DNA from: Oscillospiraceae bacterium
GTDB taxonomy: Bacteria; Bacillota; Clostridia; Oscillospirales; Ruminococcaceae
Direction of reading: 5' to 3'
Assembly (NCBI GenBank): GCA_016288755.1
Contig: JAEELE010000137.1
Location: 62,001 to 126,000, forward strand
Length of the DNA stretch: 64,000 nt
Numbering within the stretch: position 1 is the first letter of the stretch; each line of letters starts with the position of its first letter. The translations under genes and the position numbers were made by a program. Under the pieces are notes generated by a model that did no database searches, was not told where the DNA came from, and saw only the letters and a list, made by a program, of their open reading frames with translations. This document shows, piece after piece, positions 26,359 to 54,900 of this stretch.

Positions 26359-27420
26359 ATGGCAGATGAAGAAAAGCGCATGGAACGTCTTGAGCAGATT
26401 CTGGAAAAGGCAAAGGCTGCGAACGGCAAGATCACGATGACCGAGGTGCAGGACGCTGCAGAGACACTCGATCTGAATCTCGATCAGATCATGGAACGGT
26501 GCGCCGTGCTGCAGATTGAGCTGGTCGATGACCCGACCGTCGACGACATGGAGGACCCGACCGCCGCAATGTCCTCCGACGAGATCGCGAACGACGACTC
26601 TGTGAAAATCTACCTCAAGGAGATCGGGCGCGTGGCGCTGCTCTCTGCCGATGAGGAAACAGAGCTCGCAAAGCGCCTTGCCGCAAATCCGCACGACGAG
26701 CCCGCCAGACAGCGGCTTGCAGAGGCGAATCTGCGCCTTGTCGTCAGCATCGCGAAAAAGTACGTCGGGCGCGGCATGCAGTTCCTCGACCTCATTCAGG
26801 AGGGCAACATGGGTCTGCTCAAGGCGGTCGACAAGTTCGACTACACCAAGGGCTTCAAGTTCTCGACCTATGCGACGTGGTGGATCAGACAGGCGATCAC
26901 CAGAGCACTGGCGGATCAGGCGCGCACCATCCGCATCCCCGTGCACATGGTCGAGAGCATCACGAAGGTGAAGAAAATCTCCAGCCAGATTCTGCACGAG
27001 ACCGGTCAGGAGGCAAGCCCCGAGGAGATCGCAAGAAAGCTCGAGATGCCGGTCGAGAAGGTTCTGGAGATCATGCGCATCGCGCAGGACCCCGTATCGC
27101 TGGAAACACCGGTCGGCGAGGAGGAGGACAGCCATCTCGGCGATTTCATTCCGGACGATCAGGCACCCTCGCCGGATGAGGCAGCCTCCAACGCAATGCT
27201 CAAGGAGCAGCTCGACGAGGTGCTCGCGACGCTGACCGAGCGCGAGGCAAAGGTCATGCGCATGCGCTACGGGCTCGAGAACGGCAGACAGCAGACGCTC
27301 GAGGACGTCGGCAAGGCACTGGGCGTCACGAGAGAGCGCATCCGCCAGATCGAGGCAAAGGCGCTCCGCAAGCTCAAGCATTACAGCCGCAGCAAGAAGC
27401 TGCAGGGCTATATTGACTGA
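26359..27420 (+). CDS. rpoD: RNA polymerase primary sigma factor, RpoD paralogue 1
   Basis: A 353-residue sigma-70 of group 1 type. Residues 1-75 are a short region 1.1-like segment, followed by region 1.2 ([18 protein letters not shown]), regions 2.1-2.4 ([38 protein letters not shown]), region 3 ([20 protein letters not shown]) and region 4.2 ([20 protein letters not shown]). AGGAGG lies 11 nt before the ATG. It directly follows dnaG, the classical position of the primary sigma gene, so it is the better candidate for the housekeeping factor. A second, equally complete RpoD follows after 38 nt. Confidence 0.95.
26722..26885 (+). repeat. Near-identical 164-bp segment, copy in rpoD 1
   Basis: By direct comparison this segment, encoding sigma regions 2.1-2.4, differs from 27837-28000 at only 4 of 164 bases, all synonymous. 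Flanking parts of the two genes differ at many silent and non-silent positions. Confidence 0.85.
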
Positions 27421-27458
27421 TTCCGCATATGCAGTGCATTCCGAAAGGAGGACTTCAA

Positions 27459-28538
27459 ATGGCAGAGATCAATCAGCAAAAGGTCGAACAGCTGCTGGAG
27501 CGCGTAAAGGCATCCGGCAAACTCGTGCAGCACGAAATCGACAACGCCTTTCTTGAACAGGAGTTTACCGACGAGGAGATCAGCCTGTTCTACGAGCGCT
27601 GCAATGCGCTGAATCTGGAAATGCCCGAGGAGGAGCTGCTGGACGACGAGATCGAGACCCGGCTCGACGCAGAGGATGCAATGGCACTCGACAGCGGGCA
27701 GTCGCCGGATGACCCGGTCAAGATTTACCTCAAGGAGATCGGGCGCATCCCGCTGCTCTCCGCTGAGGAGGAAACGGAGCTCGCAAGGCGTCTTGCCGAG
27801 AATCCCAACGACAAGGAGGCAAAGCAGCGGCTCTCTGAGGCGAATCTGCGCCTTGTCGTCAGCATCGCGAAGAAGTACGTCGGGCGCGGCATGCAGTTCC
27901 TCGACCTCATTCAGGAGGGCAACATGGGTCTGCTCAAGGCGGTCGACAAATTCGACTACACCAAGGGCTTCAAGTTCTCGACCTACGCGACATGGTGGAT
28001 CCGTCAGTCGATCACCCGTGCGATTGCCGATCAGGCGCGCACCATCCGCATTCCGGTACATATGGTCGAGACGATCACCCGCGTGAAGAAGGCTTCGAGC
28101 CAGCTGCTGCACATCAACGGCAAGGAGCCGACCGAGGAGGAGATCGCGGATTTCCTCGGCATGTCCGTCGACAAGGTGCGCGAGGTCATGCGCATCGCAC
28201 AGGAGCCGGTGTCGCTCGAAACGCCGATCGGCGAGGAGGACGACAGCCACCTCGGCGACTTTATCCCCGACGATCAGGCGCTCTCGCCGGACGAAGCCGC
28301 CGCAAAGGTGATGCTCCGTCAGCAGCTCGAAGCGGTGCTCTCGACGCTGAGCGAACGCGAGGCAGAGGTGCTCCGCATGCGCTACGGGCTCGACGACGAC
28401 CCGCCCCGCACGCTGGAGGACGTCGGCAAGGCACTCGGCGTCACGAGAGAGCGCGTCCGGCAGATCGAGGTCAAGGCGCTGCGCAAGCTCCGCCACCCGA
28501 GCCGCAGCCGTCAGGTCAAGGATTTCCGCGAGACGTAA
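27459..28538 (+). CDS. RNA polymerase sigma factor, RpoD paralogue 2
   Basis: A 359-residue group 1/2 sigma-70 factor next to paralogue 1. The N-terminal 80 residues are unrelated in detail and more acidic ([18 protein letters not shown]). Regions 2 and 4 are complete, with [20 protein letters not shown] and a different basic tail ([11 protein letters not shown]). It keeps the promoter-recognition helices, so it should read similar -10 and -35 elements; different partner or stress use is inference. The start ATG 27459 has AAAGGAGG; the ORF track adds ten upstream codons. It ends in a terminator hairpin, closing dgt-dnaG-rpoD-rpoD. Confidence 0.93.
27837..28000 (+). repeat. Near-identical 164-bp segment, copy in rpoD 2
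   Basis: Partner of 26722-26885, offset 1115 bp in direct orientation. The four differences are all third-codon-position changes. Confidence 0.85.
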
Positions 28539-31716: not shown

Positions 31717-31754
31717 TCTGCATACCCGACCAACATCACGAAAGAGGCGTATCT

Positions 31755-32708
31755 ATGAAGAAAACCATGATTGCAGCCTGCTGCGCGGCTCTGCTGCTGA
31801 CCGGCTGTACCAGCGTCCGCGATCTGTTCGGCTCCAAATCGGACAGCCAGAAAGCACAGGAGAGCGCCGCTGCTGAGACGACCGTTACGACGACCTCTGC
31901 CCCGCCGCCGGAGCATGTGCTCGTCACGCTCGGCGATTCGATCTCTGCGGGCTACGGTCTCGCCGATGCCAAAAAAGAGCGCTATTCCGCGCTGCTCACC
32001 GAAAAGCTCACGATCCGCGACGGCATCGAGTGGGTCGACTGCAATTATGCGGTCAGCGGCGACGACAGCACCGACCTGCTCAAGCGCCTCAACGACGGCA
32101 AGGCGCTCCGTCTCCCCTCTGCTGACGCGGTCGTGATCTGCATCGGCGCCAACAATTTGCTCGGTCCGTACTCGGACTACCTCAAAAACGCCAAGGGCTC
32201 CTTCCAGATCAATCCCGAGGGGCTGACGAGCGACGCGATCGGCGAGCTGACCGGCATTCTTGAGAAGAACAAGCAGGCGATCGAAACGCTGAAGACCGAC
32301 CTTGAAGCCGGCTTTGCGAAGATGCCGACCGATCTGCAGGCAGCTTACGAGTTCATCCGTGCGCGCAATGCCGACGCACCGATCTATCTGCTCAATATCT
32401 ACGACCCCTACAGCAAGCTGAAAATCGACAACCCGGTCAATCCCGATCAGAGCTTCGGCGATTATTCCGGCGAGCTTCTGACTAGGATGAACAGGATCAT
32501 AAAGGACTATGCCGACGCGCACAGCGACATCACCTATGTCGATATCGCGAAGCCCTTTGCCGCGACCGACCCGATCCCGATCCTCGGCAATGTCAACAAT
32601 TACAGCATCACAAGCGGCACACTGCTCAATTTTGACCCGCACCCGAATCTCTCCGGGCAGAAGCTGATCGCAGACACGCTCTATCCGGTCATCGACGCTG
32701 CACAGTGA
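31755..32708 (+). CDS. SGNH/GDSL-family lipoprotein hydrolase
   Basis: A 317-residue membrane-anchored esterase/lipase-fold enzyme. The lipobox is LLLTGC at residues 13-18. A Thr/Ser-rich linker (AAETTVTTTSAPPPE) leads to the hydrolase domain. Block I is TLGDSISAGYG with the nucleophile Ser, block III is IGANNLLGP, and block V is FDPHPNLSG with the catalytic Asp-His. Possible substrates include acetylated polysaccharide or peptidoglycan esters; the dockerin neighbours make carbohydrate esters attractive but unproven. The true start is ATG 31755 (AAAGAGG); the ORF track runs 220 codons further upstream through the dockerin gene in another frame. Confidence 0.88.
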   Translation: MKKTMIAACCAALLLTGCTSVRDLFGSKSDSQKAQESAAAETTVTTTSAPPPEHVLVTLGDSISAGYGLADAKKERYSALLTEKLTIRDGIEWVDCNYAVSGDDSTDLLKRLNDGKALRLPSADAVVICIGANNLLGPYSDYLKNAKGSFQINPEGLTSDAIGELTGILEKNKQAIETLKTDLEAGFAKMPTDLQAAYEFIRARNADAPIYLLNIYDPYSKLKIDNPVNPDQSFGDYSGELLTRMNRIIKDYADAHSDITYVDIAKPFAATDPIPILGNVNNYSITSGTLLNFDPHPNLSGQKLIADTLYPVIDAAQ

Positions 32709-32766
32709 TGCATCAGAGCGGCTCACGCAGGGCTGCCCCTGACCCGTCAAACTGAAAGGAATTCAA

Positions 32767-33432
32767 ATGAAGCCTGATCAAATCCGCACTGTCATTTTCG
32801 ATCTCGACGGCACGCTGCTGGACACGCTGGACGACCTTGCAGCGGCGCTCAATCACGCGCTTTCGGTCTATTCGGCGCCGCCGTGCTCCCGTGTCAATGT
32901 CCGCAGATTCGTCGGGAACGGCATCAACAAGCTGGTCGAGCGCGCACTCCCCGGCGGCACGGCTGAACCGCATTACGCGGAAATTGTGCAGGAAACCCGG
33001 CAATACTATGCGCAGCACTGCACCGATCACACGGCGCCCTATGCCGGAATTCCGGAGCTGCTCAGGGCGATTGCGCCCGGCAGACAGCTCGCCGTTGTTT
33101 CCAACAAGCCCGACCGTCAGGTGAAGGAGCTCTGTGCTGTGCATTTCGGTGATCTCATCACCGCTGCAGTCGGCAATCGCCCGGACTGCCGGCTGAAGCC
33201 TGCCCCCGACGCAATCTGGAATGTGATGATGCAGCTGCAGACCGATGCGCTGCATACGGTCTATATCGGCGATTCGGACGTCGATCTCGAAACGGCGCGA
33301 AACGCCGGAATCCCTTGCATCAGCGTGCTCTGGGGCTATCGCGACCGCGATCTGCTCGAGGAACGGGGCGGCAGCGTCTTTGCCGAGACGCCGCAAGACC
33401 TCGGTCTCCTGCTCACAGAGACCGGGATTTGA
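32767..33432 (+). CDS. HAD-superfamily phosphatase (phosphoglycolate phosphatase-like)
   Basis: A 221-residue haloacid dehalogenase-type phosphatase. Motif I is IFDLDGTLLDT, motif II VVSNKPDR, motif III the lysine in RLKPAPDAIW and motif IV IGDSDVDLETARNAG. The helical cap is of the Gph/PGP type (VRRFVGNGINKLVERAL). Phosphoglycolate is the family's default substrate but could equally be another small phosphoester. AAAGGA lies upstream. The promoter of the next gene overlaps its stop codon. Confidence 0.88.
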   Translation: MKPDQIRTVIFDLDGTLLDTLDDLAAALNHALSVYSAPPCSRVNVRRFVGNGINKLVERALPGGTAEPHYAEIVQETRQYYAQHCTDHTAPYAGIPELLRAIAPGRQLAVVSNKPDRQVKELCAVHFGDLITAAVGNRPDCRLKPAPDAIWNVMMQLQTDALHTVYIGDSDVDLETARNAGIPCISVLWGYRDRDLLEERGGSVFAETPQDLGLLLTETGI

Positions 33433-33457
33433 CAAAATTCGCAGGATTTGGTATAAT
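33429..33457 (+). promoter_or_regulatory. Promoter of the PAS/hybrid-kinase-like gene
   Basis: TTGACA, 17-nt spacer, TATAAT with TGG before the -10; overlaps the stop of the HAD gene. Confidence 0.82.
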
Positions 33458-33504
33458 AAAGAAATAACAGTCAATCGGATGCATGACAGGAACGGAGGTG
33501 CCTT

Positions 33505-36500
33505 ATGTGGAATCAGACCACGGATCAAAGCCTGCTGGAGCTGCGTGAGGATGCAGTGCTGATATTCAGAGAGCCGACAATGGAGCTGCTCTGCCTGAAC
33601 GGTGCTGCGCGCAAGCTGTTCGGAAATGCCGAGGGAAAGCATTTTTCTGAGCTGATCCAGCTCCCTGCTGTTGAAAATCTGATGCGAAACACGACCGAAA
33701 CCGGACGTCTGAGTGCCTCTGCGCTGGAGCAGGTGCCTTGGTTTACAGGACGTGCGGTGCTCCATGCCGTGCTGACCGAATGGGATGACGGCGACGCCAT
33801 TGCGCTGGCGATTGATCACCGTGCCTACGGTCCGCCGCCCGAGGCACTGCAGCTGATGAAGGCGGTGCTCACCGCGTCCTATTTCACGGCGATTCGCGTC
33901 GATCTGCAGACGCTGCACGCTTCGATCATGAACAGCACACGTCCGCTGCTGAGCACACAGCCGGATTTCCGCTCCTATTCGGAATTCATCCGCATCTATG
34001 CAGAGGCGATGATCCACCCGGAGGACAGAGAGACCTTCCTCAGCACCTTCTCCGTTGAACAGCTGCATCTGTTCATGGAGGCGGATACCGCGCCGACCTG
34101 TATCGTGCGGCGGCAGTCCGAGGAGGAATACCGCTGGGCGAGCTTCACGCTTGCGGCGGTCAATTCCAACATCATTCTGATGCTCGGCAAGGACAGCAAT
34201 GAGCAGCAGCTCCAGAAGGAGCGCTCTGACCGCTATCAGAGCGAGCTGCAGTCGGTCTCGCGCCGCAATTCGTATATTCTCTCCAGCATGCGGGATATCT
34301 TCCGGCTGATGCTTCACATCGACCTGCGTACCGGCGACACGGAAATCTGCTCGATGCACCCCGCATTTGAATCCATTTTCTCGTATGATACGATCTACCC
34401 CTATGAGGAGGTCTACGAAATTCTGGTCGGCATGGCGTATGAAGAGGACCGCGGGATGATGAAGCGCTTTGCGGATTTCACGCAGCTCGCTTCGCTGGTC
34501 GCCGACAGTGAAAATAAGATCACTATTGAATACCGCCGCGTTTCCCGGAATCAGGAGGACCCCAAATGGACGCGCTCGGTCATCACGCTGCTGCAGTTTG
34601 AAGACGGTGTCCCGACGGAGGCAGTGTACACCGTGCAGGATATCGACACCCAGCGCCGCCGCGATCTGGAATCCCAGCGACTGCAGGATACGCTGACCAC
34701 ACAGTTCCACACGCTGATCCGCAGCCGCTATATCTGGTTCATCGACAATGATTACAGCGCACAGGTCTCGCACTGCTTCCGCATCGCTGACCGCACCGTG
34801 ACAGAGCCATTCGACGTGCCGTTCGGGCAGTTTTTCGAGCGGCTCATCATGCCCTACTGTCACCCCGACGACTTCAAGACCGTGCTCAAGGCGCTGTTTC
34901 CGGCTTCCGCGCTGGATGCCTACAACAAGGGCACACAGGAGATCTCGCTCGATTTCCGCCACAAATTTGACGGCGGATGGAAGGTTGTTCGGGCAGAGCT
35001 CTTCTTCCAGAAGGACGGTCTGGGGCATCTTCACGCGATGCTCTATATCTCCGATGTCGATCAGGCGGTGCAGCGCGCCGACAGGCAGACGCAGTTCGAG
35101 CACCAGCAGCTCATGCTCCGCAAGAAATTCTGTCTGACGATTCAGGATTCCTATATCCGCATCGGCGAGGTCGACCTCGATGCCGATACGATCTCGCATT
35201 ACCGTCTGAAGGACGGCGATTTCGAGATCGAAACAGACCCAGTGCCGTTCAGCGTGCTCTGTCAGCAGTTCATCGAGCGCTGTGTCTATCAGGGACATGT
35301 CGCCGCCTTTACCGAGACATTCTCCTACCAGCAGATTCGCCGCGCCGCTCGCAGCCGCATCCCGCTGATCCGGCAGACCGTTCTGCTCGATCTCAGCGAA
35401 AACGGCGAATATCACTGGTGCAATGTCGCAGCGAGATTCTTCCACGACGATCAGGGCAAATCGCATCTGATGATGTATATTGAAGATGTCAATGACGATA
35501 TCTGCCGCCGTGACGAGCAGGTCAAGGAGCTCGAACAAATCCGCAGCGAGCTGATCACCGAGCTGCGGCGCAAGGAGCATCACCGCATCCGCAAGGCGCA
35601 TCTCTATCTCGATCTGGCGAGCAATTTCCAGCTCTCGCTGAATCATATCTATTCCGCGATCGAGACACTCCGCGACGCACCGGGTCAGCAGGAGACGTCG
35701 GAAACGGCTCTCTCCGAGCTCACCGCGGTCTATGAGCATCTGTCCGCGATGACAGCCCGTGCAAAGGATATTCTGCTGCTGGAAAACCACCAGCTCCCGA
35801 TGCTCAGGGAGGAGGTCAGCATCTCGAAGCTGCTCCACCAGATCAAGAACAACCAGCTGTCCGTGTTCTACGGCAAGTCACTCAAGGTCATGGCATATAC
35901 CAGCCATGTCACCGAGGAGGTCGTCTGCAGTGATTCGCGCCGCCTGACCGACCTGTTCGAGAGCGTTTTTATCAGCGTCATCCGCACGCTGCCCGAGGGC
36001 TGCCGTCTGACGCTTCAGCTCGCACAGCTCCCCTGCCCCGACCGCCGGAACACTGCCGTCTATGAATTCTCAATGATCACCTACGGCAATCAGTCCTCGG
36101 AGGAATTCCAGAGCGGAATCTGCGAACCGGTCGAGCACACCGAGGGTGCGCTGCGTGCGATCGCAGATGAGTTCCGCAAGGAAAACAAGCTCCAGCAGTA
36201 CGGGCTCTACTTCTGCAGACGTCTGATCGACATGATGCAGGGTGACATGCAGTTCGTCAAGCTCCCCGACGGCGCCAGCGCGGTCATCATGCGGCTGCCG
36301 CTGCAGTATATCCCGCATCCGGTGCACTTCCCGCATATGTTTTGTCTGAAAAAGCGCGTATTTGTGTGGGATTCCGACCGGAAATACGCGATGGCGACGA
36401 TGGAGATGCTCCGCGAGACCGGCATGCGCGTCGACTGGCAGGCGGACTACGACAATCTCTGCTCGAATCTCCGTGCGGCAGATGCACAGGGCGACCCCTG

Positions 36501-36738
36501 TGCGCTGATCGTGCTCAAACAGAGCGACCTCAATGAGGAATCCCGCGCATGTCTCTGGGAGCTCTTCGACCGCATGCCGCAGATTCCGATCCTGATCCTT
36601 GCAGATTCCATGCCGCTGCCGCACACCAAACCTGCCCCGGACCAGAAAAATGTCTACTACGTCACCACGCCGCTGTTCCGCTCGTATTTAGCGGAAAGCC
36701 TGTGGAAGATCGTCAAGGACACCGAGTTGGATAACTGA
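33505..36738 (+). CDS. Large cytoplasmic multi-PAS protein with degenerate histidine-kinase and receiver domains
   Basis: A 1077-residue soluble signalling protein without membrane helices. Residues 1-680 hold about four to five PAS-like units, recognised by repeated closing motifs such as HPEDRETFLSTF and HPDDFKTVLKAL. A dimerisation-helix region near 695-720 aligns to HisKA but reads SNFQLSLNHI where SHxxRTPLNAI is expected, so the phospho-histidine is Asn. The ATPase-like region (about 780-935) lacks the N-box Asn (FISVIRTLPEG) and the DxG box, keeping only YGLYFCRRLIDMMQGDM. The last 120 residues resemble a receiver, but the acceptor Asp position is Lys (LIVLKQSDL). I infer a non-catalytic sensor scaffold. 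GGAGG precedes the ATG. Confidence 0.8.
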   Translation: MWNQTTDQSLLELREDAVLIFREPTMELLCLNGAARKLFGNAEGKHFSELIQLPAVENLMRNTTETGRLSASALEQVPWFTGRAVLHAVLTEWDDGDAIALAIDHRAYGPPPEALQLMKAVLTASYFTAIRVDLQTLHASIMNSTRPLLSTQPDFRSYSEFIRIYAEAMIHPEDRETFLSTFSVEQLHLFMEADTAPTCIVRRQSEEEYRWASFTLAAVNSNIILMLGKDSNEQQLQKERSDRYQSELQSVSRRNSYILSSMRDIFRLMLHIDLRTGDTEICSMHPAFESIFSYDTIYPYEEVYEILVGMAYEEDRGMMKRFADFTQLASLVADSENKITIEYRRVSRNQEDPKWTRSVITLLQFEDGVPTEAVYTVQDIDTQRRRDLESQRLQDTLTTQFHTLIRSRYIWFIDNDYSAQVSHCFRIADRTVTEPFDVPFGQFFERLIMPYCHPDDFKTVLKALFPASALDAYNKGTQEISLDFRHKFDGGWKVVRAELFFQKDGLGHLHAMLYISDVDQAVQRADRQTQFEHQQLMLRKKFCLTIQDSYIRIGEVDLDADTISHYRLKDGDFEIETDPVPFSVLCQQFIERCVYQGHVAAFTETFSYQQIRRAARSRIPLIRQTVLLDLSENGEYHWCNVAARFFHDDQGKSHLMMYIEDVNDDICRRDEQVKELEQIRSELITELRRKEHHRIRKAHLYLDLASNFQLSLNHIYSAIETLRDAPGQQETSETALSELTAVYEHLSAMTARAKDILLLENHQLPMLREEVSISKLLHQIKNNQLSVFYGKSLKVMAYTSHVTEEVVCSDSRRLTDLFESVFISVIRTLPEGCRLTLQLAQLPCPDRRNTAVYEFSMITYGNQSSEEFQSGICEPVEHTEGALRAIADEFRKENKLQQYGLYFCRRLIDMMQGDMQFVKLPDGASAVIMRLPLQYIPHPVHFPHMFCLKKRVFVWDSDRKYAMATMEMLRETGMRVDWQADYDNLCSNLRAADAQGDPCALIVLKQSDLNEESRACLWELFDRMPQIPILILADSMPLPHTKPAPDQKNVYYVTTPLFRSYLAESLWKIVKDTELDN

Positions 36739-36743
36739 ACAAT

Positions 36744-36784
36744 AAAACAGGCACACCCCAAGCGCGGGTGTGCCTGTTCTGTTT
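36744..36784. terminator. Bidirectional terminator between the PAS protein and the CotH gene
   Basis: AACAGGCACACCC and GGGTGTGCCTGTT are perfect 13-bp arms around a 7-nt loop, with A/T runs on both sides, between convergent genes. Confidence 0.88.
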
Positions 36785-44208: not shown

Positions 44209-47200
44209 TCACGGCTCCAGTGCGATGCTGAGCAGCAGCCTGACATCAAGCAGCGTGGCGGCGCCGTCCAGATCGAGGTCAGGGTCCGCGAGCAGCAATG
44301 CATCGGTCTCCGCATCGGAGAGCGCCGCATCCTCGGTGACAAACCGCGTGAGCAGCACGGCATCTGCGATCGTGATATCGCCGTCGCCGTTGTAATCGCC
44401 GGCAAGATGCTGCTGCGATATTCCGACGAAGGTCAGTCCCCTTTCCTGCGCGTAAATCTCGAGCGCTGTGCCGGTCAGACCGGTGATCTCCGTCAGTGCG
44501 GTCGCATCAAACGCCAGTGTGCCGATCTCCGTGATCTCCCCCTTCGCGGTCAGCGTTTCGAGAGCCGCGCAGCCGTAGAACAGACGCTCCGAAATCTCCG
44601 TCAATCCGCTTCCGAGCACGGCAGAGGTCATCTGCTTGCAGTCCCAGAAGGCTTCGCGGTCGATCGCGGTCACACTGTCGGGAATCGTGACCGTTTGCAG
44701 CGCGGTGAAGTAGAATGCGCGCTTGCCGATCTGCTGCAGCCCCTTGTGCAGCGTCACCGTTTCGAGAGCGCCGCACTCATAGAACGCATCATCGCCGATC
44801 TCCTGCACGCTCTCGGGTATGTCCGCGGCGGTCAGTCCGGCGTGGAAAAACGCCTGCACACCGATCGACTCCAGCCCGCTCCCGAGGCTGATCTGCTCCA
44901 GCGCCGTGCACTGGTAAAACGCCTGATTGCCGATACTGACAACGCTGTCCGGAACGGTGAGCTCCTTCAGCGATGCGCAGTTCTGGAATGCGCTCGGACC
45001 GATCTCCGTCACACCCGCGCCGATCTGCACGGAAGTAAGGTTGTAGCAGTCATTGAAGGCGTTTTTGATGATATCGGTGATGCCGTCTTCAATCACCAAA
45101 TGCTCCACCTGACTTTTACTGATATCCGGGAACATCCTGTCAATATCTGCCATGCTCCCCTCACCTGCTACGGTCAGTGTCCGGGTCTCCGCATCGAATA
45201 CCGCATGCGGGCTGCGGTCGGGCGTCGTGGTTTCCGTCGTCGTGGTCTCGGTCGTTTCTGTGGTCGTTGTATATGTCGTGGTTTCCGCGGTTGTCGTTTC
45301 GGTTGTTGTCGTTTCGGTTGTTGTCGTTTCGGTTGTCGTTGTGGTTTCCGTCACGCTCGTTGACGTGTATTCTGCCGGGTCGATCTCCTCAAACGAATAC
45401 CCGTTTTTCTGCGCAAAGATATCCGCCGTCGAGCCTGTATATCCGACGATGATGATGCGTTTCTTGTGATCGTCAGAGTAGTCGCTTTTGTAGCTGTCCT
45501 CGAGCACGCATTCTGGATTGAGAATGCAGAAGCGCTTGTAGCCGCTGTCTGAGATCTGTGAGAAGAAATCCGTATTGGCGTATGTCATCTCTGCCGGACA
45601 GACGACCTTCTGCACAGCGCTGTAGCAGAATATCCTGTTTCCGACCGTGCAGCTGCTGTGCGGCAGCGTGATCTCATAGAGCGACTTCGTATTGTAGAAG
45701 GCAGACGCCCTGATCCAGGTGACGCTGTCGGGCAGCGAGAGGGCACGGAGGCTCACACAGCCGGAAAATGCAGACTCTCCGATTGTTGTCAGCGTGCCCG
45801 GAAGCGTAATGTCCATGAGATTTTTGCACTGATAGAAGAGCTTGTCACCGAGCTCGGTGATGCCCTCGCCGACCGATACCGTGACGACCCTGTCCGTCTG
45901 CCACGGCGCAGAATAGGTCGTGTCATATGTAGCCGCGCCCGTTCCCGTGAGCGTCAGCATGCCGTCGCTGGTCAGCTTCCAGCGCACGCCGTCGCCGAGC
46001 GAACCGCTGCCGAGAACAGTCAGCTCCTCGAGCAGGCGGTACGGATTCCCGTTCCTGATCGCGAAGAGCTGCGCCTGCGAGTCCTCGTGGCAGACGATCA
46101 CTGCCGTTTTCGGGAATCTGCCTTTGAATGCGGTGTCTGCGTTCAGTACAGTCAGCTCCTCGAGTGCAGTGCAGCCGTCAAGGGCGTAATCAATGCTTGT
46201 GATGCCCTCCGGCACTGTGAAGGCGGTCAGTGATGTGCAGTCGCAGAAGGTGTGATCGAATGTGCCGTACAGCGCTTCAGGCAGCACGATATTTTCAAGC
46301 GACGCGCACCCGTAAAACGCACCGGAACCGATCTCGGTAACGCCTTCGGGAATCACGATCTCCCTGAGTGCTCTGCACGATTCAAACGCGCTTGCACCGA
46401 TCTCTGTGAGGTTTTCCGGGAAAATGACCGTTTTCAGTGCGCTGCACCCGCTGAACAGTGACTTTGGCAGCGCCAGCAGTTCGCCGTTGAAGACCGCAGC
46501 GGTGATCGACCTGCAGCCCATGAAAGCACCCTCGCCGAGCTCGGTGACCCCGGCGGGAATCGTGATCTCCGGCAGTGCACCGCATCCGTCAAATGCGTTC
46601 TTCCCGATTGCCGTCAGAGCTTCCGGCAGCGTGACAGCTTCCAGCTGAGAGCAGCCTGCAAACGCATTTTCCCCGATCACCGTGATCGAGGACGGCAGCG
46701 TCACCGAGGTCAGTTTTTCGCAATCCTGAAAGGCATTGTCCCCGATACTGGTGACGCCCTGAGAGACCGTCACCGATGTGATGATGCTGCGGTAATCGAT
46801 CCACGGAACGCCGTCCCAGCGAAAGCCGCTCATGCCTCCGTTGCCGCTGATGATCAGCCTGCCGTCGTTATAGAGCGTATATGACACATAGCTGTCGTAT
46901 ACGGAAATATCGCCGGATTGCAGAATGAATGCCGATTCAAAGGGCACAAATGATGCACCGTATTTCTTTGCCCAAGCATCTGCGGTCGAGTTGACGAAGC
47001 CGCGCACCGTGGATGTCCTGTCAATGGAGTCGTTGAGGACACAGTCGAAATTCCGGACGGTCACGGTCAACCCGGTGCACCCCGGAAGGGAATCAGTCTC
47101 CACCGTCTCGACTGTTTCGGGCAGATCGATCTCATCCAGCGCATAGCAATGCGTAAAGGCGTATTTCGGAATCGTTTTCACGCCCGCAGGGATATTGATG

Positions 47201-49281
47201 CGCTCCAGCGCCTTGCAGTTCTGAAACGTACCCTGCCCAATGATGACGAGGCTGTCGGGCAGCGTGACCCGCTCGAGCGTATCGCAGTCCTTGAACAGAC
47301 CGCTCAGCAGCTCGGTGACGCCCTCGGGGATCACGAGCTCCGTAAAGCTGCCGGTCGTCCAGAGCTCATACAGCTTATCGTCCTCGCCGGTGCACCAGAC
47401 ATTTTCGCCGCATGCATAGAGAATGCCGTATTTCGTATCTGCTTCCAGCCCGTATTTCTCCGCATAGGCTTGCGCGGTGCTGTTTTCAAAGCATTCGATG
47501 ATTCCGCCGGGGATCGTGTCCGGCGAATCGGCGATCTCGCAGATCGGATTCTCAAAATAGAAGCGCTGCAGTGCCGTGCAGCCCGAGAATGCCCCTGTCC
47601 CGATCGATTGGATGCTGTGACCGTACACACACAGCCCGAGCAAAGATGTGCAGTCGGCAAAGGCATAGTCCCCGATTCGCTCCAGACTGCGCGGCAGCGT
47701 GACCGACGTGAGCGCCGTGCAGCCGCGGAACATCTCCGCGGGGATCACCGTGACGCCGTCCGCGACCGTGAGATATCGGATCTGCCCGCAGAGATCGCGC
47801 CAGCCCGCGGGATCGGCGCCTGCGTCCGTGACGGTCAGGCGTCTGCTGTCGCTGTCATAGCTCCAGCCGTAGGCACCGGGCGTCAGCAGCTCGAGCGTGT
47901 AATGCTTGGTTTTCGATGCGAAATTGACCAGCCATGTGAAGGTGTCGTAGCAGGTGACCGTGCGCTCGAGCTCCGATTCCGTGCTGAACCCGAAGATGCA
48001 ATCCTTCGAGGCGGTCGGCACGGTACAGTCATAGCAGTTCGCGCGGATGTCTGTGAGCGCGGTGCAGTCGTAGAATGCCTGACTGCCGATGCGCTGTATT
48101 TCCGCAGGCAGCGTGATCGACTTCAGCCGGTTGCAGTTGGAAAATGCCTCTGCGCCGATCTCCTGCAGCCCCGACGGGAACCGGACAGACGACAGGCTGA
48201 TGCAGAATTTGAATGCCCGGTCGCCGATGATGCGCAGCCCCGACGGCAGCGACAGCGACGTGATGCCAGTCCCTCTGAACGCATCGGCGCCGATCGCGAT
48301 GAGCGAATCGGGCATGGTGACCGAAGTCAGCTCCTTGTGCGAATTGAGCAGTCCGCCTGCGATGCCCTTTGTCCCCGCCGGAATGCTCCAGCTCGTGAGC
48401 GAGCCGCCCTCGGACGTCTGCCAGTCACCGTTTTCGTCGCGGCTCGGCAGGTCGCCCAGTGCGATCGCCCATTTGCCCGCGTACTGTACGCCGTCGGTGA
48501 CACTGACGCATTGGGCGCCGAGAAAGGCGTCCTGTGCGACGTCGTTGACGCTGTCTGGGATCGAGACCGAGCTCAGCGAGATACAGCCGTAAAACGCGCG
48601 CGATTGGATCTCCTGCAAGCCCTCCTGCAGCGTAACGCTTTTCAGCGCGGTACAGTCAGCGAACATCACGCCGCTGACAGCGGTCAGTCCGGCAGGCAGT
48701 GTGATGCTTTTCAGCGCATAGCATTCCGAAAAGATGCTGTCATCGCAGGTCGTCAGAGATTCCGGCAGTGTGATGCCGGTCAGCGCGGAGCACTTCCAGA
48801 ACGCCGAGAGACCGAACTTTTTGATCTGATTTGGCAGCGAGACTGCGGTCAGCGCGGAGCAGCCCATAAAGCACTGGGAAGGAAGCGCCTCCAGCACGGT
48901 GCTGTTGATTTTGACGTCCGTCAGATAGACACAGCGCTGGAAGGCGCCGGTGCAGAGCGATTTCACGTCCTTGTCGACAATGACCTTGCGGATAACGGTA
49001 TCCGGCAGCGGTGTATCGTCGTCCTTTGCGCGGTAGCCGGTATATTTGCCCCACGGTGCAGATGTCATGTCGTCGTTGCCGGAGATCGTCAGTGTGCCGT
49101 CACTCTCGAGCCACCACTGCAGCTGCGTGCCGCAATACCCGGAATCCACCACGGCATTCACCGCAGCCGACACATTTGCGCGCGCTGCCGCTTCGCTGTA
49201 AAGTGCAAGGGCTGTGCTGTCCGTCGGCATCAGCGCGAGCATTGCTGCCGATAATACCGCGAAAATCCTGAATTTGCGCAT
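44209..49281 (-). CDS. Giant secreted LRR_5 (BspA-like) protein with Thr-rich linker and dockerin
   Basis: A 1690-residue exported surface protein. Signal peptide 1-25. BspA-type LRR_5 repeats fill about 60-1285, each near 23 residues with the pattern AFxxCxxLxxVTLPxSLxxIG. At about 690 and 870 the array is broken by beta segments rich in Cys and Tyr. A Thr/Glu linker (about 1304-1362) separates a second LRR block (about 1375-1620). The C-terminal dockerin has loop 1 DYNGDGDITIADAVLL; loop 2 (DPDLDLDGAATLLDVRLL) is stretched. Function is unknown; BspA relatives mediate adhesion. The ORF track adds 77 spurious codons before ATG 49281. Confidence 0.88.
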   Translation of the reverse strand: MRKFRIFAVLSAAMLALMPTDSTALALYSEAAARANVSAAVNAVVDSGYCGTQLQWWLESDGTLTISGNDDMTSAPWGKYTGYRAKDDDTPLPDTVIRKVIVDKDVKSLCTGAFQRCVYLTDVKINSTVLEALPSQCFMGCSALTAVSLPNQIKKFGLSAFWKCSALTGITLPESLTTCDDSIFSECYALKSITLPAGLTAVSGVMFADCTALKSVTLQEGLQEIQSRAFYGCISLSSVSIPDSVNDVAQDAFLGAQCVSVTDGVQYAGKWAIALGDLPSRDENGDWQTSEGGSLTSWSIPAGTKGIAGGLLNSHKELTSVTMPDSLIAIGADAFRGTGITSLSLPSGLRIIGDRAFKFCISLSSVRFPSGLQEIGAEAFSNCNRLKSITLPAEIQRIGSQAFYDCTALTDIRANCYDCTVPTASKDCIFGFSTESELERTVTCYDTFTWLVNFASKTKHYTLELLTPGAYGWSYDSDSRRLTVTDAGADPAGWRDLCGQIRYLTVADGVTVIPAEMFRGCTALTSVTLPRSLERIGDYAFADCTSLLGLCVYGHSIQSIGTGAFSGCTALQRFYFENPICEIADSPDTIPGGIIECFENSTAQAYAEKYGLEADTKYGILYACGENVWCTGEDDKLYELWTTGSFTELVIPEGVTELLSGLFKDCDTLERVTLPDSLVIIGQGTFQNCKALERINIPAGVKTIPKYAFTHCYALDEIDLPETVETVETDSLPGCTGLTVTVRNFDCVLNDSIDRTSTVRGFVNSTADAWAKKYGASFVPFESAFILQSGDISVYDSYVSYTLYNDGRLIISGNGGMSGFRWDGVPWIDYRSIITSVTVSQGVTSIGDNAFQDCEKLTSVTLPSSITVIGENAFAGCSQLEAVTLPEALTAIGKNAFDGCGALPEITIPAGVTELGEGAFMGCRSITAAVFNGELLALPKSLFSGCSALKTVIFPENLTEIGASAFESCRALREIVIPEGVTEIGSGAFYGCASLENIVLPEALYGTFDHTFCDCTSLTAFTVPEGITSIDYALDGCTALEELTVLNADTAFKGRFPKTAVIVCHEDSQAQLFAIRNGNPYRLLEELTVLGSGSLGDGVRWKLTSDGMLTLTGTGAATYDTTYSAPWQTDRVVTVSVGEGITELGDKLFYQCKNLMDITLPGTLTTIGESAFSGCVSLRALSLPDSVTWIRASAFYNTKSLYEITLPHSSCTVGNRIFCYSAVQKVVCPAEMTYANTDFFSQISDSGYKRFCILNPECVLEDSYKSDYSDDHKKRIIIVGYTGSTADIFAQKNGYSFEEIDPAEYTSTSVTETTTTTETTTTETTTTETTTAETTTYTTTTETTETTTTETTTPDRSPHAVFDAETRTLTVAGEGSMADIDRMFPDISKSQVEHLVIEDGITDIIKNAFNDCYNLTSVQIGAGVTEIGPSAFQNCASLKELTVPDSVVSIGNQAFYQCTALEQISLGSGLESIGVQAFFHAGLTAADIPESVQEIGDDAFYECGALETVTLHKGLQQIGKRAFYFTALQTVTIPDSVTAIDREAFWDCKQMTSAVLGSGLTEISERLFYGCAALETLTAKGEITEIGTLAFDATALTEITGLTGTALEIYAQERGLTFVGISQQHLAGDYNGDGDITIADAVLLTRFVTEDAALSDAETDALLLADPDLDLDGAATLLDVRLLLSIALEP
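45291..45335. repeat. Three perfect 15-bp tandem repeats coding for the Thr/Glu linker
   Basis: TTGTCGTTTCGGTTG occurs three times without mismatch; on the coding strand it gives in-frame TTTTE-type units. Flanking sequence is a degenerate continuation. Such an array can slip in steps of five residues. Confidence 0.85.
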
Positions 49282-49317
49282 ATCGTTCACGTTCCCTTCT
49301 GCGAGGATGTTTGTTCC

Positions 49318-49346
49318 ATTATACCACAGGATACGCTGAAAATCAA
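49318..49346 (-). promoter_or_regulatory. Promoter of the 1690-residue LRR gene
   Basis: Minus strand TTGATT, 17-nt spacer ending in TGTGG, TATAAT; extended -10. Confidence 0.78.
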
Positions 49347-49377
49347 GCATGCACGATATCGCGAATGATCTGCACGC

Positions 49378-49412
49378 ACAAAAAGGAGGAGCCCGAAGCT
49401 CCCCCTTTTCAT
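49378..49412 (-). terminator. Terminator of the GH9 gene
   Basis: Minus strand AAAAGGGGGAGC pairs with GGCTCCTCCTTTTT around TTCG, with a U-run at the end of the stem. Confidence 0.82.
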
Positions 49413-49465
49413 GATTCGCGCAACGGCAGCCGTTCCGTGTATGGAGTGATCCGTGTGAAGGCTGT

Positions 49466-51808
49466 TCACTGCTGCAGGAGCATCCGCTTGAGTACCGTCG
49501 CGTCCTTTGCATTGACCGTGCCGTCGCCGCTGAAATCGAAGCGCATGGCAGTCTCCTCCGAATCGAACGGCTGAATATTGAGCAGATATTTCATCAGCCG
49601 CACCAGATGCGACATCGAATAGGTCACCGAGGGCTGCGTGCCGTCCGGCTCCGTGCCGCCGACGAGTTTTCCGTCCGCATACACACAGATATTCGGGCAT
49701 TTTTCCGCAAGCTCCACACCGCCGGTGATATTGTCATATTCCTCGCCGAGCACCTTCATCCCCTTGTGGCTCCAGTCGTTCTCCGGGTCCCAGTTATCGC
49801 CGTAGAACATCCCGAGAATGAGCTGTACCTTCTTGTTGGAATTGGCGATCGCGTAATCGGGCCACGCGACCTCAACATAATATATATCGTCCTGATACTG
49901 CACGGGCTTTGAGACGACCGCCGCCTTCCCGCTGACCTCCGTCTGCACCTGATCGTAGGGCACCTGCAGCACAAAGCTCCCCGGAATGCCGTCGTTGTTT
50001 TCAAATTCCGCAATGCTGAAATAATACCGCACCGACAGATCGGTGTGCGGCTCCAGCGAATCGGTGTTGACAAACATCGTCAGCTTGGTCGTGCCCGCGC
50101 CGGTCGATTCAGGCGCCTCAGCGCAGTAGCCCGAGACCCAGAAGCCGCTGCCGGAAAACAGCTCCTCGTCGGACTGCTTTTCCGCCGGCGGGAAATCCGG
50201 GGTCGGCTGCATTCTGTCATCGCCGTAGCGGAGATACAGCCCGGCAGCCGCACCGACAAACGCCGCATTGTAGTCGATCGTGACCTCATTGTAGACCCAG
50301 TCCGCGGTCGTGTCGTTGTGCAGATCGTCATTGCCCGGACCGCCGACCAGCGCGCCCCAGAGCACATGCTTCTGCTCTGCGGTGTCCTCACACTTCGTCA
50401 GACCGGAGGCTGCACGGTGATGCGGAAATTTCGCGGAATTCTCGGCATACCCGACGACATAGCAGCGGTTGAGCGGATTGTCGCCGAGGAGATACTCCAT
50501 CTGCCCGAGCGCCCACTCCGAGAAATAATAATCGCTGTGCTCCGGCTGGTAAACATCCTTGCCCTTCTGATACTTGTCATAGACCAGCGCGCAGAACTGT
50601 GCTGCGGTGTTATATCTGGCGGAGCCCCATTCATCCATCCAGAGATATCCCGCGGGCGTGATCATGCCGACCTCGCCGTCGATGCGCGCATTGATCGCCT
50701 TTGCCTCCATATACCAGAAATCGAGCACCTCGTATTCGCCGCGCCCGATCGCGACTCTGCATTCCTCACAGACCGCCGGATACTGATCCTGAATCCGCCC
50801 GAGCAGAATGGAGACGCCGTTCCACATGTCATTCCAGCAGAGCACATAGCCCGGCGGCGCATAGTAGTCCACATAGGGCAAAAATGCGTCCAGATAGCTG
50901 TGATCCTGCGTGATCAGATAGAGCCATGCGCCCGCAAAGCTGTAGTCGTCCTCCCACTTGCTCGAGGTGTAAAAGCTCATCGGACCGTCTCCGCCGGCAC
51001 CGACCTTTTTCTCATTCTTCTCCGCAAATGCAAACAGTGCCTTTGCATAATCCAGACACTGCGCTGCGTATTCCGCGTCGCTCTCCTTGAAAATGCAGTA
51101 GTTGATCGCCAGTGCGGCAGCTGCTTCTGAGACATCGTCCGTTGTCGGCAGATCGGCGGTCGCGAAGAACGCCGGACGCGCCATCGCATCGATCTCAGGC
51201 GACTGCCAGTAGAGATGATCCACACTGCCGTCGCCGACCTGATAGCAGAACGCGATCACGTCGCCGCTTTTGTCGCGGAAGGTCGCGCGCATGAAATAGT
51301 CGCAGAAATGGCGGCAGATCGTCTCGGTGTGCTCCGCCTCCCCGATCGCCTCGTAGGCTTCCCGGAATTCATAATAGCCCCATGCAACGATCGAAGCCGC
51401 ATAAGCCTCGGGCAGACCGAACTTCACATGGTCACCTGCATCGTGAAACCCGCCGGAGACATCGACCGTGCCGTCGCCGTCGGGGTCAAGCACCGCTTTG
51501 TTCGCTTTGATGAACGCCTCCGACAGATTGGTCCCGACGCCGTCCTCATCCGCAGGACGGAGCGGAACGGCGGCGTCATAGACATGGCAGTCCCCGCGCC
51601 ACGGGAGCAGGCTCTGCTCGGTGACTTCGGTGCCGCACATATTGGCATCGTAGAAATACAGCGAATATTGCAGGAGCCTGGCAAAATTACACTCGACGCT
51701 CTCATAGTCCGCCGTATGCGGGTTCGCCTCTGCCGATGCCGTCAGCGGCAGTGCAGAGCAGATCACTGCCGCTGCCAGCAGCAGGGCGGTCAGGCGTTTT
51801 GCTTGCAT
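49466..51808 (-). CDS. GH9 endoglucanase with CBM3c and dockerin
   Basis: A 780-residue secreted cellulase. Signal peptide 1-26 (LPLTASA). GH9 catalytic domain about 38-500: the nucleophile/base aspartates in SGGFHDAGDHVKFGLP, the histidine of FPHHRAASG and the acid glutamate in VYNEVTIDYNAAFVG. A CBM3c-type module follows at about 548-690 (VRYYFSIAEF, DNWDPENDWSHKGM), the processive theme-B arrangement. The dockerin is at about 725-780; its second loop (DFSGDGTVNAKDATVL) is canonical but the first Ca loop is degenerate. ATG 51808 has GGAGGGGAA upstream; the ORF track begins 20 codons early. Confidence 0.94.
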   Translation of the reverse strand: MQAKRLTALLLAAAVICSALPLTASAEANPHTADYESVECNFARLLQYSLYFYDANMCGTEVTEQSLLPWRGDCHVYDAAVPLRPADEDGVGTNLSEAFIKANKAVLDPDGDGTVDVSGGFHDAGDHVKFGLPEAYAASIVAWGYYEFREAYEAIGEAEHTETICRHFCDYFMRATFRDKSGDVIAFCYQVGDGSVDHLYWQSPEIDAMARPAFFATADLPTTDDVSEAAAALAINYCIFKESDAEYAAQCLDYAKALFAFAEKNEKKVGAGGDGPMSFYTSSKWEDDYSFAGAWLYLITQDHSYLDAFLPYVDYYAPPGYVLCWNDMWNGVSILLGRIQDQYPAVCEECRVAIGRGEYEVLDFWYMEAKAINARIDGEVGMITPAGYLWMDEWGSARYNTAAQFCALVYDKYQKGKDVYQPEHSDYYFSEWALGQMEYLLGDNPLNRCYVVGYAENSAKFPHHRAASGLTKCEDTAEQKHVLWGALVGGPGNDDLHNDTTADWVYNEVTIDYNAAFVGAAAGLYLRYGDDRMQPTPDFPPAEKQSDEELFSGSGFWVSGYCAEAPESTGAGTTKLTMFVNTDSLEPHTDLSVRYYFSIAEFENNDGIPGSFVLQVPYDQVQTEVSGKAAVVSKPVQYQDDIYYVEVAWPDYAIANSNKKVQLILGMFYGDNWDPENDWSHKGMKVLGEEYDNITGGVELAEKCPNICVYADGKLVGGTEPDGTQPSVTYSMSHLVRLMKYLLNIQPFDSEETAMRFDFSGDGTVNAKDATVLKRMLLQQ

Positions 51809-51856
51809 ATGATTCCCCTCCACAGAGTTTTGCGGCAAATCTGCCGCGCTGTATTC

Positions 51857-51885
51857 AGTATACCACATTTTTCCGGAGAAATCAA
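51857..51885 (-). promoter_or_regulatory. Promoter of the GH9 gene
   Basis: Minus strand TTGATT, 17-nt spacer ending in TGTGG, TATACT; same layout as the LRR gene promoter at 49318. No terminator is visible between this promoter and the LRR/CBM6 gene upstream. Confidence 0.75.
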
Positions 51886-51918
51886 TATATCAGCGTCGCT
51901 TTTGCGTGTATTGCGCGC

Positions 51919-54900
51919 TCAGGCAGATTCACCGGAAATCAGCTTCTCCAGCAGAGAAGCATCCTTCTCATCGATCTGACCGTCCCCGTTGACATCGGCA
52001 AGCTCCAGCTGTTCATCCGTGAGCGTGATCTCCCCGCCATCAGATAATGCCTTGATGCACGCGCGAATCAACTTCGCGTCTTCCGTTGAAAGTGTTCCGT
52101 CCGAGTTCACATCGCCCTTCAACGGCTCAGCCGGCGGTGCAGGCGGCACCAGCAGCTTCAGAATCAGCTTTGCGTCCGTGACCGTCAGCAGATCATCCTC
52201 ATCCATGTCGGCTGCTGTGAGACCGTCCTCTGTGATTGCAGTGCCTTCTGTTTCCGTAATGTATTTGCAAAGCAGCACGGCATCTGCAACGGATACTTCG
52301 CCGTCCTGATTCACGTCGCCGAAGAGAATGCTGCCCTCTGCCCGCACAAAGACAAACGAATCCACATTCATGATGTATTCGCTTTCGCCCCTGAACAGCA
52401 GGCAGAGATCGTGTACGCCGTCAACCGGTGTGATCGCAGTCTCAAGCTGCCGGTATTTCATCCAGTCGCCGGTCGGCTCGCAGACCTGACTGCCGAGCAG
52501 AATGCCGTCTGCGCTGTCCAGATGCAGCTCGACCGTTCCGACAAACGGGCCCGCCGTCAGCAGCATGCACTTCACAGCGCCGCTGCCGAAATCAACATTT
52601 TTGTAGACCGCATAGCTGCCGTCCTGAATATACCCGATGCAGATGATGCTGTCAGACTGCTCCTCCGCCAGCATGCCTGAGAGCTCATCGGCGCTTTCCG
52701 CCTCAATGGTCCTGAACGCATTGCGGTTGCCGGGCGGGACCGTCGTTGTCGTCGTCGTTGTGATCACAGTCGTCGTTGTGATCTCAGTCGTTGTCGTGGC
52801 AGTAGTCGTTTCTGTTGTTGTCGTGACCGTTGTCGTTTCCTCGGGTATCTCCGTGATCGCGACAAAATTGATATTGTAGCTCTGAGCAAAGGATTCCGCA
52901 TAGGAGCCTGCAAAGCCCATGATCGTCAGGCTTTCCGTATGGGAAAACGCAGTATTGTCAATCTCGGTGACACTTTCCGGGATGATGATCTCCGTCAGAT
53001 TCGGGCAGCCGTAGAATGCCTGATGACCGAAGCTTGTCAGATTGCCGCGAACGGTCACTTTGCACAGCTCAGAGCACCACGCAAATGCATAATCGTCCAT
53101 GAATGTGACGCTCTCCGGGATATTGACATAGGTCAGCGCATCGCAGTCACCGAAGGCACTGTAGCCGATGCTTGTCACATGCTCCGGGATGTGAACCGCA
53201 CGCAGGCTCTTGCACCCGTCGAAGGCGCCGTTGCCGATCTCTGTCACGCCGTCCGGGATCGTTATGGAGGTCAGAAACTCGCAGCGGGAGAATGCGGCGT
53301 TGACGATTTTGGTGACGCTGTCCGGGATATGTACGGTTGTTAATCTTGTGCAGCCGCTGAACCATCCGTCCAGCTTCTGATTGGTAATGCCGTCCGGGAT
53401 GCTGATCTCCGTCAGAAAGCTGCAGCCGGAGAATGCGTTTGCGCCGATATATGTGACACTGTCAGGTAAATCCAGAGAGATCAGGGATTCGCATCCGCAG
53501 AAGGCGCCGTTCCCGATGCAGGTCACACTGTCCGGGATCACGATATGCTCCAGATATTGGCAGCCGTTAAACGCATAATTGCCGATCTTTGTCACGGTGT
53601 CCGGGATCCGGTAGGTCCCGGTCTTCATGGTCGGGAACCGGATGAGCTCCGTGCAGTCCTTATTGAACAAAATGCCGTCGATGCTGCTGAAGGCGGGGTT
53701 GTCCGGCGAAACCCGAATTCTCTCCAGTTCATTTACACCGAATGCGTTTTTGCCGATGTATGTCACGCTCTCGGGAATATCAAACGTGCGGATGTTGTCG
53801 CAGTTTGCGAAAGCTGAGGTACCGATCGTTGTGACGCTGTTCGGGATCGTGATGCTGCGCAGACCTTTGCAGTCCTGAAATGCGTTGTTGCCGATGAATG
53901 TCACGCTGTCCGGTATGGTCACCTCATGCAGTGTACGACAGTCATAAAATGCGGATTCCCCGATGCTTGTCACGCCGAACGGAATGGTGACCGTGCTCAG
54001 TGAAAAGGTGTTGCCGGAAAACGCATGATCACCAATCGCCGTCACGCCGTCCGGAATGATCACATCGTCCTTGCACTCCGCGTGAATCAGAACGCCGTCT
54101 TCGATCTCAAATATGTTTTGACCTGCGGAATTGTTTTTCCACGGGGTTTCGTCAAACGCCCCCTCGCCGATGCTTGTCACGCTGTCGGGAATCGTGACGG
54201 AGCGCAGATTTTCGCATAATCTGAACGCATTGTCGCCGATGGTCGTGACGCCGTCAGGAATGATGATCTCAGACAGCAGGCGGAAGTCTTCAAATGCGCC
54301 GTTGCCGATGATCTTCAGGGTGGACGGCAGGTGAACCTCCTGCAAAAAGCTGTAATTATGAAAGACACCGTCGCCGATGGCGGTCACGCCCTCCGGTATC
54401 TCTGCAACAATTCCGCCGGAATCCAGCTCATTGGAGTCCGTGCCGATCAGAACGCCGTTTATGATGCAGTACGGACTGTCTCCCATTGTTTCATGCTGCC
54501 ACGCTGTACCGGAAAAAGCATCGCCTCCGATGCTCGTCAGACCTTCCGGGATCGAGATGTCAGTCAGCTCGGAGCAGCTGCAGAATGCATCCTCTCCGAT
54601 CCGGACCGTGCTGCCCGATATTTTGACCTCGCGCAGACCCTTGCAGGCATAAAATGCACAGTTGCCGATCTCGGTCATGTCCTTCGGGAATGTGAGAGCG
54701 GTCAGACCGTTGCAGCCGTGAAAAGCATTCTCGCCGACGGTCTCCATGCTCTCCGGAATCGTGAAATCGGTCAGTGCAGTGCAGTCATAAAATGCACGCT
54801 CTCCGATGCTTTTCACGCCGTCTGACAAGGTGAGCTGCGTCAGCTTGCTGCATTGGTAAAATGCAAGCTCGCCGATATGCTCCACGCTGCCCGGAACGGT

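Follow-up and report, generated by a model that had tools for sequence, protein, structure and literature searches.

A genus-specific family of pseudo-hybrid histidine kinases without the catalytic residues of transmitter and receiver

The gene described here lies on the forward strand of a 64,000-nucleotide stretch of Oscillospiraceae DNA (the window, taken at its full length) and encodes a protein of 1,077 residues (Table 1). The intact frame and the consensus promoter had both been read in an earlier note on this DNA, and both hold. The promoter matches the sigma-70 consensus at every position, and its -35 element shares bases with the stop region of the HAD gene before it. Since the gene has a promoter and a terminator of its own, it looks like a separate transcription unit. 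Upstream DNA is available for 23 orthologs, and in 22 of them a near-consensus promoter (11-12/12) is found 75-108 bp before the start; the sole exception is ortholog L005, the start of which is uncertain. As controls, 6 of 400 random 160-bp windows contained a near-consensus site, and a site of at least 11/12 occurred within 160 bp in 2 of 26 other genes of the window. No transmembrane segments were found in the protein (maximum 19-residue hydropathy 1.09). Opposite the gene runs a 1,041-aa open frame (32713-35838, minus strand), which is probably compositional, since mirror frames of this kind accompany many of the window's genes. The earlier note counts the protein as the second large pseudo-enzyme of the window, a count for which no counterpart was identified. 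Elsewhere, the window holds two adjacent tandem sigma-70 (RpoD-like) genes, apparently both intact (26359-27420 and 27429-28538), and a cellulosome-type cluster (44209-56046, minus strand) in which a GH9 cellulase with a dockerin stands between two BspA-type leucine-rich repeat proteins of very large size, one of them carrying CBM6 and a dockerin.

Table 1. Coordinates of the pseudo-hybrid kinase gene, its expression signals, the modules of its product and the residues discussed in the text (positions within the window)
Feature	Position	Strand	Details
Promoter TTGACA-17-TATAAT	33429..33457	+	12/12 sigma-70 match, 17-bp spacer, TG 5' of -10
Ribosome-binding site GGAGG	33494..33498	+	six bases 5' of ATG, read directly
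Pseudo-hybrid kinase gene	33505..36738	+	intact 1,077-codon ORF, 1077 aa
PAS-type module 1	33538..33828	+	residues 12-108; AlphaFold2 fold, Foldseek PAS matches of N-terminal model
PAS module 2	33838..34212	+	residues 112-236; profile similarity to modules 3-5; poorly modelled
PAS module 3	34246..34668	+	residues 248-388; model, Foldseek, profile similarity
PAS module 4	34687..35094	+	residues 395-530; Pfam PAS_3 E 2.9e-8
PAS module 5	35101..35508	+	residues 533-668; hhalign to module 4 E 3.4e-14
Pseudo-DHp (HisKA) domain	35509..35814	+	residues 669-770; hhalign E 3.3e-4, shuffled control 0.6
His699	35599..35601	+	invariant in 23/23; Thr/Glu/Asp/Val in canonical kinases
Ser706, phospho-histidine position	35620..35622	+	posterior 0.95
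Pseudo-CA (HATPase_c-type) domain	35815..36324	+	residues 771-940; hhalign E 2.5e-21, shuffled control 0.29
Ser824, N-box metal-binding Asn position	35974..35976	+	Asn in 13/23 orthologs
Thr859, adenine-binding G1 Asp position	36079..36081	+	Asp in 0/23
Pseudo-receiver domain	36325..36735	+	residues 941-1077; hhalign E 2.5e-13, shuffled control 0.37
Lys1005, receiver phospho-Asp position (Asp57)	36517..36519	+	posterior 0.68
Intrinsic terminator, 13-pair stem	36746..36778	+	

The protein is built of five PAS-type modules followed by a DHp (HisKA) domain, a CA (GHKL ATPase-type) domain and a receiver. PAS modules 2-5 are mutually similar by profile. Module 1 is PAS by fold only, its profile similarity to modules 2-5 being below detection. 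Pfam detects PAS_3 in all 23 orthologs. Within module 4, Cys452-His453-Pro454-x-Asp456 is invariant across the 23 orthologs; the Cys452-His453-Pro454 stretch (34858-34866) is a possible ligand or redox site.

The C-terminal half is hard to recognise from any one sequence. Pfam and NCBIfam searches with the single protein gave only PAS_3 above cut-off, kinase matches being sub-threshold, and a single-sequence PDB search gave a chance match only and was discarded. Over the 23 family members, Pfam recognises HisKA in one, HATPase_c in three and the receiver model in none. We therefore suggest that counts made with Pfam underestimate such proteins. Each module was aligned separately by hhalign with 26 canonical hybrid kinases drawn from the same bacterial family as the source, with column-shuffled controls, and each found its canonical counterpart (E of about 3e-4, 3e-21 and 3e-13). 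Taken as a whole, the C-terminal half aligned with the canonical kinases over 404 columns (E 1.7e-36). Furthermore, the DHp-CA profile of the 23 orthologs matches the histidine kinase structure 7z8n in the PDB (E 1.5e-10). The order of modules given in the earlier note is thus borne out, and the possibility it had left that the C-terminal parts belong to other folds finds no support, as by alignment they are the expected histidine kinase and receiver domains.

The DHp-CA fold is supported by profile, and structure prediction, which the earlier note had called for, contributed mainly at the receiver. The four-sequence AlphaFold model of the C-terminal half has a mean pLDDT of 45, leaves CA unmodelled and is good at the receiver only, the one part of it drawn on here, where the pLDDT reaches 85 and the (beta-alpha)5 fold is seen. 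By Foldseek this part matches the receiver 2qxy (E 4.9e-5, target TM 0.80), and the CikA pseudo-receiver is also among the matches. At the sequence level, searching the PDB with a profile of the receiver alone returned no significant match to a receiver; the receiver identity rests on profile-profile alignment together with the modelled fold.

The catalytic residues were compared in a profile alignment of the 23 family members with the 26 canonical relatives. At the phospho-His column, His is present in 26/26 canonical relatives and in none of the family, which has Ser in 22/23 and Ala in 1/23. The His-to-Asn change reported earlier was correct in that the His is lost; the residue at the site is Ser706, and Asn707, the next residue, had been taken for it by a one-residue misregister, as the aligned columns put Ser at the site. 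A better alignment has therefore given no phosphorylatable His or Asp back to the protein. Asn707 occupies the place of the acid beside the phospho-His, which is Ser, Asn, Asp or Thr across the family, and the Thr four residues past the phospho-His position has become Leu in 23/23.

In the CA domain, family members carry Thr, Met, Ser or Ile in place of the G1 Asp (26/26 in canonical relatives), and the second G1 Gly, likewise 26/26 in canonical relatives, is retained in 0/23 (Gln863 in the window protein). The loss of the DxG motif had been read correctly. The G2 glycines are also replaced in the family, where alignment certainty is lower. Both N-box Asn residues are replaced in the window protein (Ser820 and Ser824), so the N-box loss claimed earlier applies to this protein and not to the family. 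Given that 13 of the 23 orthologs still have Asn824 and that it changed at least four separate times on the tree (in the window protein with L034, in L045-L048, in L041 and in the L051-L053 group), the loss is local to some lineages.

In the receiver, the phospho-Asp column has Arg in 20 members, Pro in two, Lys in the window protein and Asp in 0/23, against Asp in 24 of 26 canonical relatives, the other two being gaps. Hence the Asp-to-Lys change noted before describes the window protein, and the family state is Arg. The conserved Lys is likewise absent from all 23 members (Thr1055 here) and present in 24 of 26 canonical relatives, again with two gaps. The first acidic residue is retained (Asp956 here; Asp in 20 and Glu in three), the second is Ser in 19/23 (Ser957 here), and the active-site Thr is replaced in most members. 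Taken together, the window protein does not carry the phospho-His, N-box and G1 DxGxG/G2 GxGxG motifs of an active histidine kinase. Its histidine kinase homology without the phospho-His, conserved under selection, is that of a pseudo-histidine kinase, for which integration into a two-component network by partner binding would also be expected, and its receiver, having lost at least one of five active-site residues, is a pseudo-receiver. One residue has been gained: His699 is a novelty of the family and the one His in the C-terminal half that never varies. Being seven residues, or two helical turns, from the lost phospho-His, it lies on the same helix face.

The family is confined to one genus. 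Of 29 other genomes examined in the source genus, 24 have an ortholog, and the gene occurs in all 13 genus genomes that are at least 90% complete, the source genome included. The aligned orthologs are 33-55% identical to the window protein, their frames are open without internal stops, and the losses of the phospho-His, the G1 Asp and the receiver Asp and Lys are common to the 23 aligned, which supplies the genus-wide conservation analysis that the earlier note had proposed. The five genomes without the gene are 58-86% complete and also lack the neighbouring HAD ortholog; for them, therefore, loss and assembly gap look alike. A profile search of 398 wider-family genomes (126 genera) gave seven matches below 1e-60, all of the source genus, and no orthologs in the 125 other genera sampled. 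Members score at least 1,419 bits against the family profile and the best outsider 139; the outsiders from the single-sequence search are canonical kinases. The family is monophyletic with a support of 100/100. A profile search of the source genome for further relatives gave none that was close, and phage records gave one distant partial match.

The surroundings of the gene are likewise conserved. In 18 of 20 flanks an SGNH hydrolase gene comes first, then the HAD gene and, directly behind the latter, this gene; the other two flanks are cut by contig ends. A radical SAM gene lies between SGNH and HAD in the five species whose gap could be read clearly; it is absent from this interval of the window (31740-33432). 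An active ancestor at the same place was not found in sister genera, where the HAD gene has other neighbours at 20 loci. The deep-branching orthologs L052 and L053 have a second receiver that retains Asp and Lys and carries Ala-Ala for the acidic pair (half-dead), and most species of the family are without a second receiver. A stepwise loss of REC2, on a tree whose family root is not resolved, is suggested by the L052/L053 second receiver lacking its acidic pair.

Two proteins outside the family were also seen. Protein L055 of a sister species, a PAS array of 744 aa, ends in GGDEF, and its PAS modules resemble those of the family (24% identity over residues 158-534). In the source genome, an otherwise canonical hybrid kinase (L118, contig C93) has a segment between CA and the active receiver that may be another pseudo-receiver.

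Strong purifying selection acts on the dead modules (dN/dS mostly 0.06-0.27). In close pairs, values were 0.04-0.18 for the PAS array, 0.006-0.14 for DHp (pairs with finite dS), 0.06-0.19 for CA (full-length pairs) and 0.11-0.27 for REC. Mean conservation of the ex-catalytic columns is 0.73, compared with 0.55-0.63 for the domains, in a set that includes kept (Asn713, Asp956) and partly kept (N-box) columns. New residues have become fixed at ex-catalytic sites, namely Ser706, Leu710, Arg827 and Arg1005; the dead sites have thus been re-fixed and not released. Genus-wide orthologs, shared losses and purifying selection mark a new pseudo-hybrid kinase family and not a decaying gene, and the earlier observation that three dead modules are kept together holds for the family as a whole.

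RetS is a membrane protein that still siphons or removes phosphate, whereas the window protein is soluble and has lost all catalytic groups. The likeness lies in a hybrid kinase that touches another kinase directly, and the PDB matches include the RetS core (E 7e-4); in Pseudomonas, RetS inhibits GacS by contact (PMC12189002). DivL, a Caulobacter pseudo-histidine kinase, has several PAS domains before a DHp-CA core without phospho-His, and this core has been turned into a sensor that binds DivK~P and performs no catalysis (PMC4211667). In DivL, however, all of the N, G1, F and G2 boxes are retained and the His is a Tyr, whereas here G1 and G2 are lost in 23/23 and a dead receiver is attached. 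With these boxes gone, the window protein does not belong to the DivL family. Nor is there sequence kinship beyond the histidine kinase superfamily, DivL scoring lowest among the PDB matches of the profile (E 0.09). ShkA has a pseudo-receiver as its REC1, and c-di-GMP is bound by the beta5-alpha5 face of this domain (PMC7010744). Our pseudo-receiver also follows the CA domain directly, corresponding to REC1 of HK-REC1-REC2 hybrids, but the ShkA core and REC2 are active, whereas the present family has a dead core and either no REC2 or (L052, L053) one without its acidic pair. CCNA_03265 of Caulobacter is likewise a hybrid kinase without phospho-His, yet it retains the receiver Asp (PMC11481889). 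The canonical PAS-HisKA-HATPase-REC1-REC2 hybrids of the same bacterial family (L006-L030) have the same module order but carry the His, G1 and receiver Asp motifs in 25/25 and reach at most 139 bits against the family profile.

DivL, RetS and ShkA show that each module can be turned to binding or ligand roles. Loss of His has been reported in 0.9% of HisKA domains and loss of Asp in 2.0% of receivers, and the switching of bacterial pseudo-receivers has been called a mystery (PMC12632262). Pseudo-histidine kinases and pseudo-receivers are thus known kinds already, one at a time. Our incomplete coverage of the literature gave no family of hybrid kinases that is dead in transmitter and receiver alike and fixed in a genus, and no such protein in Ruminococcus.

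Phosphorelay inside the protein would be impossible, as the His, Asp and Lys are missing, and ATP binding is improbable since the G1 Asp and the G2 glycines are gone. We give an even chance to the reading that the protein is a cytosolic, genus-specific pseudo-hybrid histidine kinase acting by partner binding. The five-PAS array would sense an internal signal, and the pseudo-DHp helices would dimerise, as a long DHp hairpin normally does, and relay the change to the pseudo-CA and the pseudo-receiver. These two would bind a partner and hold or release it rather than transfer phosphate, and DivL and RetS would make an active histidine kinase or response regulator of the cell the most probable partner. 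For this protein, then, we infer the absence of ATP binding, the dimerisation, the partner binding and the kind of partner. The source genome offers possible partners in 20 HisKA and 34 receiver matches; no kinase or regulator genes were found near the gene itself. The putative protein-protein signalling without phosphorelay of the earlier note fits all of these findings.

The partner could also lie outside two-component signalling, being an enzyme, a transcription factor or one of the SGNH, radical SAM and HAD products, with the old kinase parts acting as a dimerising scaffold. That the gene stays linked to SGNH and HAD genes throughout the genus speaks for such a role, as does the conserved near-consensus promoter, which suggests an abundant protein. 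But these neighbours are generic enzymes, the HAD gene keeps other company in sister genera, and with this promoter the gene is transcribed on its own, so that linkage need not mean joint function. We consider this reading unlikely, though it is the nearest to the preferred one. More doubtful is that the emptied ATP site or the pseudo-receiver is a small-molecule pocket, making the C-terminal half a sensor and not an output. The c-di-GMP-binding pseudo-receiver of ShkA at the REC1 position sets a precedent (PMC7010744), Arg replaces the phospho-Asp in 20/23, and beta5-alpha5 is the best conserved part of the pseudo-receiver (Pro1056 and Arg1059 invariant, Phe1058 nearly so); this conservation, however, is mostly inherited from canonical REC1 (KPLFxSxL).

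The invariant His699 counts against a purely binding role, leaving a small opening for unusual phosphorylation. Fixed in every member, unlike any other His in the C-terminal half, new to the family and two helical turns from the old site, it might be phosphorylated in trans by another kinase in a non-standard phosphorelay. We regard this as very improbable, as self-phosphorylation is unlikely with the G1 Asp and the G2 glycines gone, and a receiver lacking the acceptor Asp and the conserved Lys offers the phosphate no internal destination. That a hybrid kinase is decaying towards a pseudogene would agree with the loss of all catalytic residues and, in most species, of the second receiver, but we consider it highly improbable. 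The orthologous frames are open, every complete genus genome has the gene, all modules are under strong purifying selection, and the pseudogene reading was rejected on dN/dS and the re-fixed ex-catalytic columns.

Returning to the reading by partner binding, it may be, at somewhat below an even chance, that throughout the genus the DHp, CA and REC1 cassette has become an output working by allostery alone, without any contact with ATP or phosphate. The N-box would then decay piecemeal in side lineages after the loss of the His, G1 and receiver Asp. A family that is empty in transmitter and receiver alike isolates the binding function from phosphate chemistry and is directly testable. If true, the allosteric-output family would constitute a natural series of a signalling enzyme becoming a binding module.
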